DNA from: Alteromonadaceae bacterium XY-R5
GTDB lineage: Bacteria; Pseudomonadota; Gammaproteobacteria; Enterobacterales; Alteromonadaceae
Length of the DNA: 64,000 nucleotides
Assembly (NCBI GenBank): GCA_001660395.1
Contig: LXWE01000001.1
Span: 992,001 to 1,056,000 of the forward strand
Direction: 5' to 3'
Below, in pieces: positions 18,767 to 26,154 of this stretch. The notes beneath the pieces are model-generated. The model saw only the letters and a program-made list of their open reading frames with translations, ran no database searches and was not told the origin of the DNA. Within the stretch, counting starts at the first letter, position 1. Every line of letters begins with the position of its first letter. The position numbers were made by a program, and so were the translations under genes.

Positions 18767-20200
18767 TTAATCCACCACCATCAGGCTACGGTATTCGTCA
18801 TAGGCGAATTGATCCGTCATGCCGCTGATAAAATCCTGCAGTAAACGGCAGCGATAATAAAACTCCCAGCTGTCATCACAGTCATTTTCCAGCGCGGCCA
18901 CATAGGCGCGGATATGCTTGCCCGGCAGCTTTTTAATCAAGCGTTTATCCAGTAAACGGGCGGATTTTTGCTGATCTAATGTAGCCTGAAAAGCATTTCT
19001 GTCTAAGGTCAGTAGTGAACGATAGCAATCCAGCAGACCGGTAATAATTTTATAGCCCTTCAGCTCCGCCGCCTCCACTTCAGGATCGCAAAAGGCAAAC
19101 TGCAACGCCACCCGTTTCAAACTCTCGGCAATGGCATGGGCGTAGCTGTTATCTTCTAGCAGCGCATGGTTAAAACTGCCCGCGTAAACGGCGTCGATAT
19201 TATCGATAAAACGATGCACCGCATGCTGCACCAAAGGGTGGGTTAACCCGACCCGCAAGGTGATGAAATACTTGGAATCGCGGCTGATGCTCTCGCGCTG
19301 GCGCGCCGCCAGGGCCTTATCAATCACCTTACCCATATGCTCAGCACTGGCATCTAAACCAAACTCAGCGCAGATATCGGCATAGGCCTTAATCAGCTCC
19401 TGACTGAGTTTATCCGTATCTAAAATGCCCTTCTCTACCGCGTCTTCAATGTCGGCAATGCAGTAAGAAATATCGTCGGCGGCTTCCATAATGTAAGTGG
19501 CTGGATGGCGACATCCGGGGGCCATTTCCAGCGCGTCACTGATGCGCTCAACAATGCCCTGTTCACTTAGGTAATAACCAACTTTTTTATGCAGATAACT
19601 GAATGGATGCTCGCGCTCCGGCTTTGGAATGCCGCCGCAACGGGTATATTTTAAAATGCAGGCTATTTGCGCATAGGTCAGATTCAGACCCTGCAGGCTA
19701 TGCACCAGCCGAATGGCCTGGGCATTTCCTTCAAAATGACACAGATCCTGATATTGCTCCTGACTTAAGGCGACGTCAGCGGGCAACAGAGCATCCAGAT
19801 GATCGCTAAACCACTGGCTGATGGCGGCTTCACCAAAATGGCCAAAGGGTGGATTGCCGATATCGTGCATCAGGCAGGCCATTTCCACCAGCGTCTCCAG
19901 TGGCCGCTCCATCTCAGCCATGCCAAATGCAGCCTGCTGTTCGCTGCTGAGCTTGTCGAAAATACTCTGCACAATAAAACGGCCCACCTGCTGGACTTCC
20001 AGCGAGTGAGTTAAGCGACTGCGCACCGCAGCGTTACGCTCCAGCGGAAATACCTGGGTTTTCTGCTGTAACCGGCGCACCGAGGCCGAATTGATAATGC
20101 GACCACGATCACTTTCAAGTGCGCGACACAAGCCTCGTATATCACTGGCCTGAGTGGCGTTATGTTCACGTTGCGGGGTTATTTTTCGACGAAAATCCAT
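18767..20200 (-). CDS. dgt: Deoxyguanosine triphosphate triphosphohydrolase (dGTPase)
   Basis: A 477-residue HD-domain enzyme. The N-terminus FRRKITPQREHNATQASDIRGLCRALESDRGRIINSASVRRLQQKTQVFPLERNAAVRSRLTHSLEV is typical of Dgt. The first metal His is in RLTHSLEV and the HD pair is in LMHDIGNPPFGHFGE (about residues 111-125); a late ADDISYCIADIEDA holds the further Asp. It splits dGTP into deoxyguanosine and triphosphate and helps control dNTP pools. The length suits the E. coli-type (about 505 aa) branch. Monocistronic. Confidence 0.93.
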   Translation of the reverse strand: MDFRRKITPQREHNATQASDIRGLCRALESDRGRIINSASVRRLQQKTQVFPLERNAAVRSRLTHSLEVQQVGRFIVQSIFDKLSSEQQAAFGMAEMERPLETLVEMACLMHDIGNPPFGHFGEAAISQWFSDHLDALLPADVALSQEQYQDLCHFEGNAQAIRLVHSLQGLNLTYAQIACILKYTRCGGIPKPEREHPFSYLHKKVGYYLSEQGIVERISDALEMAPGCRHPATYIMEAADDISYCIADIEDAVEKGILDTDKLSQELIKAYADICAEFGLDASAEHMGKVIDKALAARQRESISRDSKYFITLRVGLTHPLVQHAVHRFIDNIDAVYAGSFNHALLEDNSYAHAIAESLKRVALQFAFCDPEVEAAELKGYKIITGLLDCYRSLLTLDRNAFQATLDQQKSARLLDKRLIKKLPGKHIRAYVAALENDCDDSWEFYYRCRLLQDFISGMTDQFAYDEYRSLMVVD

Positions 20201-23610: not shown

Positions 23611-23999
23611 CTCATTCCAACATATGGCAGGCTGTTTGTAGAGTATAGTGTGCAAGGCACTTTTTCGTTTTATCTGCATACAAACAACGCGTTATAACAA
23701 TTCAGTTAAGGCGCCAATGAGCCTCAACCACGACTGAATCGAATCCCCGAAGCCCGGGGTATTTGGGCGCGTATGATAATTGAAATCAGACATAACAAAA
23801 TCCTATTCTTAGGAGAGATTTAGGACATTACACCTATCAAAACGCATCGCGTAGTGGTTCTCAGAGGTAAAAACAGGGATTCCATCCAAATTCACCAGGG
23901 AACGTAACTTGTATCTGAGAAATGCGCGGGCGGTTTGGATACGTCAGCTTTTGTCGCAGCGCCACAGTAACCTGAAAAGACTCATTCGGGAGACTAAAA
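23611..23999. other. Intergenic region upstream of the ftsZ-like gene
   Basis: About 390 bp between the M14 peptidase start and the FtsZ paralogue. It must hold both divergent promoters. A small GC hairpin is visible: CCCCG (23745-23749) and CGGGG (23755-23759) around AAGCC. No coding frame of credible composition was seen; open frames here are shadows or very short. The FtsZ paralogue's ribosome site GGGAG is at its right end. Confidence 0.5.
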
Positions 24000-25055
24000 A
24001 TGGACGCACTTATGAACACGCATTCCGGACTCAATATTTGTGTGATTGGCGCTGGCGGATGTGGAGGCAATACTCTTACTACGCTGGCCCAGCATATCAG
24101 TGATAAACACGTAAAACTGTGGGCGGTAAATACCGATGCCGCCGCACTTAAACATTGTGAAGCCGAAAATAAATTACTGATAGGTGAGACCCTTACCAAA
24201 GGATATGGCGCAGGAGCAGATCCGGATATAGGTTTAGCCGCGGCCCGGGAAAATGAAGAAGACTTACGTTCCCTGATCTCAGGTGCAGATATTGTCATCG
24301 TCACCGCCGGTCTTGGTGGCGGCACCGGAACAGGTGTGGCGCCATTTATACTCGCATTGGCGCAGGAACAAGGGATTCATTGCATGGCCGTTATGACCCT
24401 GCCCTTTTCTTCGGAAGGAAAATTTCGCAATCAAATTGCATACGAAGGCCTGGAAAAATTAACCCAGCATGCCAATGCATACATAACCCTTTCTAACGAC
24501 CAGTTACTAACCTGCCTGAATACCAGCGTTGGCATACAATCTGCGTTTACATATAGCAATGCCGTGTTGCGAAACTTGCTTGGCGCGCTGGTACAGATGC
24601 TGACATGCACAGGCATCATCAACGTAGATTTAAATGACCTCGCCAAAATTCTTTCATACCGCGGGGAATCCATTTTGGGCGTCGGCACGGCTATGTCGCA
24701 GGAAGCGTCCCTCGACGCACTCGAACAGGCACTTAATAATCCATTGGTATATCAAGCTGATATTTGTCAGGCCCGCGGCATCATACTGCAAATATTTTGC
24801 CGTGAAGACTTACCGATTAGTTGCTACGACCAGCTTACACAAAACTTATCAGCACGCTTAGGCAGAGAAAATCCATTGATTATTCAGGGCCTGACCATTG
24901 AGCCGGCACTTGAAAATGACATCGAAATTCTCGTCATTGCCTCGGGCATAGGTGTGCTCGAGAATGAGCAGGAAATGTCTGCAACCATTGAGGATGAGTT
25001 ATTCGAAATCCCCGCCTTTGTCCGTGCGCTTAAACTTGGGCAACGTCAACACTAA
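24000..25055 (+). CDS. Divergent FtsZ paralogue (tubulin/FtsZ GTPase)
   Basis: A 351-residue FtsZ-family protein outside any division gene cluster. Motifs in order: GAGGCGGNTL (residues 17-26), NTDAAAL, the tubulin signature GGGTGTG at residues 106-112, and the T7 catalytic loop NVDLND at residues 208-213 with both acids. Nucleotide binding and GTPase activation should therefore work. The C-terminus ends in DELFEIPAFVRALKL, close to the FtsZ peptide (DIPAFLRKQ) that binds FtsA and ZipA, but the usual 40-60-residue linker is almost absent. The sequence between motifs is far from housekeeping FtsZ, so a second, specialised filament is likely. GGGAG precedes the ATG. It converges on the broken WYL gene with a 2-bp gap. 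Confidence 0.88.
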   Translation: MDALMNTHSGLNICVIGAGGCGGNTLTTLAQHISDKHVKLWAVNTDAAALKHCEAENKLLIGETLTKGYGAGADPDIGLAAARENEEDLRSLISGADIVIVTAGLGGGTGTGVAPFILALAQEQGIHCMAVMTLPFSSEGKFRNQIAYEGLEKLTQHANAYITLSNDQLLTCLNTSVGIQSAFTYSNAVLRNLLGALVQMLTCTGIINVDLNDLAKILSYRGESILGVGTAMSQEASLDALEQALNNPLVYQADICQARGIILQIFCREDLPISCYDQLTQNLSARLGRENPLIIQGLTIEPALENDIEILVIASGIGVLENEQEMSATIEDELFEIPAFVRALKLGQRQH

Positions 25056-25057
25056 AA

Positions 25058-26086
25058 TTACGCCGGAGGTTGAGCATACATGCATGCAAGATGTTGGCTT
25101 AGGTTACAAAAATATTGACGTAAACTGGCGGGTTCGAGCACCTCGACCAACTCGCCTAAGCCTCGCAGAAACACTCTTAACTGACGGGTATCTGTCACCT
25201 GACTGGTTAAGATAACCCATTCTGGATCATCACTTTCCGTGATAGTTTGGGCATGGCCCAAAGTAGCATCGCGCAATAAAAACCGGCTAATTTTACGCAC
25301 TTTAAGTTTCAAATGGATATCCTCAGCGCCGCGCTGGGTATCCCATTTCAAACGCTGCAAATCAAATCAATTAGGCGTCTGAACGGTCTGTTCGGTAATC
25401 GAAACTTCTTTAATAAAGCCCAGTGGAAAACCGTAAATGCGCGGATGAAGAGTACCGAAGGTACAAATAATCATCGGACTGCCATCTTTATAAATCAATC
25501 CAAGTAAATTAACCCGATCATACAGCTTCCACAGATACTCGCCGGTTTTTGGATAAGGCAGGATACGTTTGATTTTGGCGCTAATTTGCTTTTTATGCAG
25601 TAAGGCTTCCTTCACCAGATGCAAAGTATCCTTATCAGGCTCGGGCAGGCTGATCGGCAGTGACGAATTAAACATAGCGACCGACTGTGACCAGTGATGC
25701 AGCCAGCTACTGGCCTCGCTATCGATAATGCGCTGCGCGCGTGAAAAGTAAGGTGCGAGTTCAGCAAGCGTCGAATCCGGCAAAATCGGCGCTCCTACCT
25801 GATTGAGCACATTAAACGCCAGTGCCGTGTTTGCATCCATCAGATTAAGATTTAGCTGTTTCCAGCTGGCACTGATATACCAGCCAAACGGCTTGCTACG
25901 CTGATCCGATTCCACCCCAAACCAGCCCATTTGTTCCAGCGCAACCAAATCGCGCTGGATCGTACGGATATTGACTTGTTGATGGCCTGCTTGTTCAAGC
26001 AGATGAATAAGCTGCTCAACACTGATTTTACGCGGCTGGCGCGGCAAATACTGAAGAATATCTAGACGACGCTGAAAGGCTGACAT
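25058..26086 (-). pseudogene. WYL-domain transcriptional regulator interrupted by an in-frame TGA
   Basis: Reading from 26086, residues 1-239 form a DeoR-like winged helix (LIHLLEQAGHQQVNIRTIQRDLVALEQMGW) and a WYL domain (about residues 160-235). The frame meets TGA at 25367-25369 and then continues in the same frame for another 103 codons to 25058. The continuation reads FDLQRL...IHLKLKVRKISRFLLRD...VTDTRQLRVFLRGLGELVEVLEP, which is the C-terminal WCX domain that belongs to these regulators. Together they give about 342 residues, the normal length. One base change (for example CGA to TGA) explains the break. The shorter protein might still bind DNA but would lack the C-terminal domain. Confidence 0.8.
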
Positions 26087-26154
26087 GGAAAATTCCTTTT
26101 TCTTTTAGCCTAACGAAGGGCTGCGACAATTCCTGTCGCAGCTTTTTCAGAACA

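Follow-up and report, generated by a model that had tools for sequence, protein, structure and literature searches.

Why should a bacterium carry a second FtsZ away from its division genes, and what might control it? The question is raised by a 64,000-nucleotide stretch of the genome of Alteromonadaceae bacterium XY-R5, here called the window, in which the following gene and parts of it were recognized.

24000..25055, plus strand: ftsZ2, second FtsZ gene, 351 aa, ATG start (by Pfam, NCBIfam and an FtsZ2 profile)
24951..25004, plus strand: linker, 18 residues (318-335)
25005..25025, plus strand: C-terminal peptide EIPAFVR (336-342), by residue conservation

FtsZ2 of the window matched the Pfam families Tubulin (140.6 bits) and FtsZ_C (48.7 bits) far beyond chance and scored 272 bits against the NCBIfam ftsZ equivalog TIGR00065, below the cut-off of 295.2, indicating that it is an FtsZ paralogue and not the ftsZ equivalog. 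The GGGTGTG motif and the other GTP-binding loops are intact, as are the T7-loop residues N208, D210 and D213, which were invariant in all 16 FtsZ2 proteins aligned, and GTP-dependent polymerization of FtsZ2 is predicted. One further Tubulin-family match was found in the same genome (G000, 5.1 Mb in 415 contigs), on another contig (G000:C372); this is a housekeeping FtsZ, 36% identical to FtsZ2 and flanked by ORFs recognized by eye as FtsA and LpxC, which excludes that the genome has no other ftsZ. A first-pass annotation of the window had described a second FtsZ with intact GTPase motifs (GGGTGTG and the T7 residues) standing outside the division cluster, and both claims were borne out, the former by the domains and motifs and the latter by the position of the other FtsZ between the FtsA- and LpxC-like ORFs. 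A PhuZ-like identity was rejected because the PHROGs match was weak (29.7 bits). AlphaFold models made without alignments had a mean pLDDT of 47 for FtsZ2 and 46 for the regulator fragment described below and were set aside.

FtsZ2 has in common with housekeeping FtsZ (TIGR00065) the domains, the GTPase loops, the T7 catalytic residues and the C-terminal peptide, but differs from it in forming a clade of its own, in its sub-equivalog score, in the short linker of the window's protein, in its non-cluster location and in its operator-controlled promoter. FtsZl1 and FtsZl2 are likewise extra FtsZ-superfamily proteins alongside FtsZ in proteobacteria. They are highly diverged (Makarova and Koonin 2010), with coiled-coil or ~300-aa extra C-terminal regions, whereas FtsZ2 of the window is a compact, ordinary FtsZ of 351 aa that ends nine residues past the peptide.

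The C terminus of the window's FtsZ2 reads EIPAFVRALKLGQRQH, with the nine residues ALKLGQRQH after EIPAFVR. The same peptide binds FtsA/ZipA in other FtsZ proteins. At I337, P338 and R342, conservation reached 90% or more both among 41 FtsZ2 and among 28 housekeeping proteins, and the peptide of FtsZ2 may serve as an FtsA/ZipA tether. EIPAFVRALK had been taken for the last residues of the protein and likened to the FtsA/ZipA-binding peptide; the peptide is present, but it is not the very end. The normal linker had also been called missing, or nearly so. At 18 residues it is the shortest in the clade, but it is not absent, and FtsZ2 linkers ranged from 18 to 66 residues (median 40; 40 proteins with a recognized peptide of 41 examined), compared with 44 to 82 (median 62) in 28 housekeeping proteins from the order and with 63 in this genome's housekeeping copy. 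With such a spread inside the clade, a short linker is not the trait that FtsZ2 proteins have in common and was ruled out as their key feature, and the differently spaced, membrane-adjacent filament proposed from it was not sustained.

We then asked how widely FtsZ2 occurs. Among 395 genomes drawn from the window's family, 38 matched FtsZ2 at E<=1e-68; one of these matches (G002) is a housekeeping FtsZ, so that 37 genomes carry FtsZ2, at 38 places, a patchy distribution. An order-level sample gave matches at E<=1e-112 in 23 of 394 genomes, 17 of them in four other families, and at the same threshold in a class-level sample of 369 genomes only the window's own genome matched. The FtsZ2 clade spans five families of one order. 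A profile built from 16 FtsZ2 proteins scored the FtsZ2 group, these 16 included, at 457-565 bits, versus 342-362 bits for the order's housekeeping FtsZ. Two FtsZ2 proteins of family f6 scored 378 bits, near the housekeeping range, yet their loci have the regulator and they grouped with FtsZ2 in the tree. In a quick maximum-likelihood tree, 23 FtsZ2 proteins from the five families split from 22 housekeeping and two archaeal FtsZ proteins with an SH-aLRT of 97, so the phylogeny of the paralogues places FtsZ2 in its own clade. An earlier tree, in which f25 was represented by one row, put that row outside the FtsZ2 clade; fine placement is unsure in both trees owing to long branches.

In IMG/VR, 106 pattern-matched stretches for FtsZ2 and 45 for the regulator included no relative of either, and all 24 matches of an FtsZ2 search in phage records were below 60% identity; a phage origin of FtsZ2 was rejected on these results. 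A wider contig scan found 15 loci at 35-48% (14 archaeal and one bacterial MAG). A Candidatus Thiodictyon plasmid (L121, 5956-7047) encodes an FtsZ distant from FtsZ2; its gene is followed by one for Sir2, and ~5 kb off there is a WYL gene.

The dN/dS ratio was 0.04-0.13 in 13 of 14 FtsZ2 pairs, the 14th being saturated. These values indicate that FtsZ2 is under purifying selection and is maintained in the lineages compared; the window's genus is represented by one genome only. Two of the 38 family loci (L087 and L099) have an ftsZ2 broken by an in-frame stop; one genome, G304, has both an intact copy (L078) and a broken one (L099). It is highly improbable that FtsZ2 is an ordinary redundant or decaying duplicate with no special role: the broken copies, the broken regulator gene of the window and the patchy distribution (37/395) would fit that explanation, but the low dN/dS, the separate clade and the conserved operator argue against it. 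Decay in relatives, which had been raised as a possibility for this gene, is thus mostly excluded, except for the two broken copies and the window's regulator.

The most informative features of the locus are an adjoining regulator and a common operator, both of which the first-pass annotation had missed.

25058..26086, minus strand: wyl, gene of a DriD-like WYL-type regulator, convergent with ftsZ2, 2 bp gap
25367..25369, minus strand: in-frame stop TAA of wyl, near the WYL/WCX border
23940..23958, plus strand: predicted ftsZ2 operator, TACGTCAGCTTTTGTCGCA
23968..23973, plus strand: ftsZ2 -10 box TAACCT, nine bases past the operator
26122..26140, minus strand: predicted wyl operator, TGCGACAGGAATTGTCGCA, with perfect half-sites
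26107..26112, minus strand: wyl -10 box TAGGCT, nine bases past the operator

The stop splits wyl into 25367-26086 (239 aa, putative helix-turn-helix and WYL part) and 25058-25360 (100 aa, WCX domain). Since the truncated regulator is without its WCX dimer domain, the module is probably impaired in the window's genome, either uninducible or in decay, as judged from one assembly. HTH_11 scored 19 bits on the window's regulator fragment (cut-off 25) and Pfam WYL gave no match on the regulators, so that both domains lie under the Pfam thresholds; PADLOC WYL models matched 16 of 17 regulator members. The WCX domain PF25583 gave 44.9 bits on the separated window piece and was above the cut-off in all five intact relatives of one scan; in another scan L107 scored 23.5, just under the cut-off of 23.9.

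Sixty FtsZ2 loci were examined, comprising 38 from the window's family (the window included), 17 from other families and five from Pseudoalteromonas megaplasmids (chromids). Regulators were located by sequence search, or by record annotation on the megaplasmids. A WYL-type regulator lay within 750 bp of ftsZ2 in 34 of the 60 loci (15/38 in the window's family, 12/12 in f25, 2/2 in f6, 0/2 in f2, 0/1 in f21 and 5/5 on the megaplasmids); many loci are related, and these counts are not independent. In some lineages, the window's among them, the regulator gene is convergent with ftsZ2; in others it lies upstream with the same orientation. Twenty-five loci had no regulator. The ftsZ2 gene is uninterrupted in 24 of them, suggesting that FtsZ2 does something outside WYL control. 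Twenty of the 25, all in genus g62 (L081-L084, L086 and L089-L103), have instead a divergent HicB-like antitoxin gene (PF15919 in one member) 410-560 bp upstream of ftsZ2, which may be a substitute regulator; no DriD-type operator was found in the ftsZ2 upstream regions of these loci. By eye, they mostly lie beside genes resembling biotin-biosynthesis genes.

In the window, one 19-bp palindrome, TRCG(A/T)CA-N5-TG(A/T)CGCA, precedes both ftsZ2 and wyl, and neither promoter has a recognizable -35 box. The palindrome was present before both genes in all nine convergent loci first compared (<=3 mismatches; consensus TGCG(A/T)CA-N5-TG(A/T)CGCA), and in 26 of 26 further regulator loci, which were not used for its discovery, it preceded at least one of the two genes with <=2 mismatches. 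Regulator and site thus occur together: all 35 loci with a regulator have the palindrome, compared with none of 23 tested without one, where every ftsZ2 upstream region had >=4 mismatches (the regulator-less L099 and L105 were outside that test). The position of the site differs among lineages. The ten Pseudoalteromonas-type loci have it before ftsZ2 alone and f6 has it before both genes, whereas in f25, with ftsZ2 downstream of wyl, it precedes wyl alone (three or four of the ftsZ2 upstream regions of f25 were checked). In shuffled 200-bp upstream regions, <=2 mismatches occurred in 3 of 2000. The 1.05 Mb of loci contained 44 sites with <=1 mismatch, of which 42 fell at ftsZ2 or wyl promoters, a few gene starts having been set by eye. 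A test set beforehand concerned L080, where ftsZ2 has the site and no adjoining regulator; a regulator gene (501.8 bits) preceded by a further site was found in this genome (G192), at a distance of 14 kb. Conversely, 13 of 13 genomes with a siteless ftsZ2 promoter had no regulator at E<=1e-15.

The sequence TANNNT was found exactly nine bases past the operator in 34 of 37 promoters (five further f25 sites were left out), and at the -35 position the match to TTGACA averaged 1.86 of 6, below the shuffled value of 2.48. The presence of a -10 box and the lack of a -35 box suggest, with good support from sequence, that these promoters need the bound regulator.

In the window's own genome, exact TDCGWCANNNNNTGWCGYA was found at three places, namely ftsZ2, wyl and one within a coding region. 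With one mismatch allowed there were 40 sites, versus 45 for the reversed pattern; this lack of excess led us to reject a wide regulon, and the regulator looks like a dedicated switch. Across 16 regulator genomes, 22 of 28 exact sites were at the module (none in G092) and the reversed pattern gave nine, so that the other six sites are at about background; ten regulator-less genomes had two exact sites, with none for the reversed pattern. At L212 (G128:C4:79800-82800), an extra operator-like site lies ~46 bp before a 165-aa gene, behind which comes what by eye is a DnaQ-like exonuclease gene. The ftsZ2/wyl pair is ~22-24 kb off, and TAGGAT stands eight bases after the site, not nine; the 165-aa gene is a possible further regulon member.

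What kind of regulator is it? A profile of the family matched five PDB chains at E<=0.01 (7u02, 7tzv, 9cu3, 9pfq and 8tp8), with E about 1e-5 and over the C-terminal part only. 7TZV is named as DriD (PMC12340889), and the other four chains, which have an identical aligned stretch, are presumed to be DriD too. In that paper, DriD is an ssDNA-stimulated activator with the consensus ATACGAC(X)7GTCGTAT, its site overlaps the -35 region at a fixed distance to the -10, and driD is reportedly not activated by DriD itself (PMC12340889). What DriD induces in Caulobacter is DidA, an inhibitor of division (PMC4211646). In the printed promoters of didA and driD (best-scoring frame) and bapE (third-ranked frame), the site is followed by nine bases and then CAAGGT, CAATCT or CAAGCC, hexamers that we read as the -10 boxes. 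The DriD operator therefore resembles the one described here, being 19 bp with TRCGAC-N7-GTCGYA half-sites (TGCGAC-N7-GTCGCA here) nine bases ahead of the -10. The regulators are also alike in size (~330 aa) and WCX domain, and seemingly in HTH/WYL-type layout, and in both systems the output is a division protein. They differ in that DidA is an FtsN-binding inhibitor whereas the target here is an FtsZ paralogue, in that wyl, unlike driD, often has the site itself, and in that good sites in the window's genome are at the two module promoters only.

Against a DriD-like activator, the regulator resembles DriD only weakly (E about 1e-5) and only in its C-terminal part, and a repressor could occupy the -35 region too. 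BrxR-family WYL proteins repress defence islands through inverted repeats (PMC9122601), with 11-bp repeats, a 5-bp spacer and a position downstream of the -10, and a WYL regulator near defence genes is also what is seen in Pseudoalteromonas. A BrxR-like repressor that silences a harmful ftsZ2 until a ligand releases it is nevertheless improbable. The operator here differs in size, position and promoter layout, no 11-bp repeat downstream of the -10 was found, the 19-bp site lies, as in the DriD layout, across the -35 region of promoters that have no -35 box, and the five matched WYL chains have a single aligned stretch, taken as that of DriD.

We give about an even chance to the reading that, when DNA is damaged or phages attack, a DriD-like activator turns on ftsZ2 and the resulting FtsZ paralogue, itself active, halts or reshapes division. 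The regulatory half of this module is well supported by sequence, while the trigger (ssDNA or damage) and the effect on division are inferred. In this model, ftsZ2 and wyl would form a small two-gene module with ftsZ2 as its output, and the regulator, with its presumed helix-turn-helix and WYL domains and its WCX dimer domain, would bind the 19-bp palindrome over the -35 region of the ftsZ2 promoter, its own promoter or both, depending on the lineage. Kinship and operator suggest that, as in DriD and PafBC, the WYL domain would respond to ssDNA, produced when DNA is damaged or a phage attacks. Induced FtsZ2, presumably an active GTPase, would polymerize and dock through its C-terminal peptide on FtsA/ZipA at the division site, where it might compete with or join housekeeping FtsZ, so that division would be paused or reshaped until the stress is over.

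FtsZ2 could instead be a backup division FtsZ that works under damage or phage attack, when SulA-like or phage inhibitors block housekeeping FtsZ. Its GTPase motifs, T7 loop and C-terminal peptide are all intact, and a phage inhibitor of FtsZ exists, since T7 Gp0.4 sequesters FtsZ and blocks division (PMC13423816). T7-loop and other positions that are conserved in housekeeping FtsZ are changed in FtsZ2; the changes make its mixing with FtsZ uncertain and could alter inhibitor binding. We nonetheless consider a backup role rather doubtful, as SulA-like genes showed no enrichment alongside FtsZ2 (they were present in 7 of 26 FtsZ2 genomes versus 9 of 14 without it, using a weak model and related genomes), and by analogy DriD drives an inhibitor rather than a backup.

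A further explanation is suggested by the neighbourhoods of the pair. On the five megaplasmids, the annotated neighbours varied and were, locus by locus, viperin with a reverse transcriptase and HNH; McrBC; two DUF262 (GmrSD-type) genes; a nuclease-domain gene; and HipA. Counting the first four as defence gives 4 of 5 loci, in stretches of 13-17 kb, whereas an annotated defence system (Dnd) was found in one of ten fixed-position control stretches of the same replicons, which at 11 kb are shorter; two of the test loci are from one species. PADLOC named Zorya, Drt1a and GmrSD-like proteins among 65 neighbours of ten Pseudoalteromonas-type loci; in the 25 families listed, out of 79, for the other loci (94 neighbours), there were single matches to a type I methyltransferase, DpdF and Fic. 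The link to defence is therefore suggestive in one genus, Pseudoalteromonas, and unproven in general.

Genomes of two genera are 100% identical over 11.8 kb (L104, 4909-16746, and L105), a stretch that carries ftsZ2 together with genes resembling those of an integrase and ParA, reflecting either recent transfer or assembly cross-contamination; L104 and L105, both among the 25 regulator-less loci, are the same element. In the window, an HD-domain protein (18767-20200) that matched the PADLOC dGTPase model at 236 bits lies 3.8 kb from ftsZ2 and could be housekeeping.

We regard it as unlikely that the pair is an anti-phage module in which the regulator senses infection and FtsZ2 is an abortive or decoy effector. 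The megaplasmid neighbourhoods, the PADLOC matches and the identical element with its integrase- and ParA-like genes would agree with it. However, the nuclease-domain case is weak, the two megaplasmid loci from one species have near-identical ftsZ2 genes, the HicB-type group and the three f25 loci inspected have ordinary flanking genes, and the window has no clear adjoining defence system, with the HD protein as its one PADLOC match. Returning to the DriD-like activator, we put forward more tentatively that the module is partly mobile and ssDNA-triggered and that the FtsZ paralogue takes over or jams the Z-ring, as an SOS-independent checkpoint or an anti-phage response of Pseudoalteromonas and related bacteria.

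A full-text search gave no FtsZ paralogue under WYL control in the titles and opening abstracts among the matches listed, most subscription papers being outside its scope. The published damage-induced division blocks compared use dedicated inhibitor proteins (SulA, SidA, DidA and YneA). If the induced protein is indeed an FtsZ paralogue, division would be stopped or rerouted by a logic of another kind, and FtsZ duplication would be linked with a stress or phage response. With the 19-bp site, more DriD-like regulons could be sought in bacteria other than Caulobacter, and in the bacteria that carry it a second FtsZ may act as an emergency brake or a backup for division.
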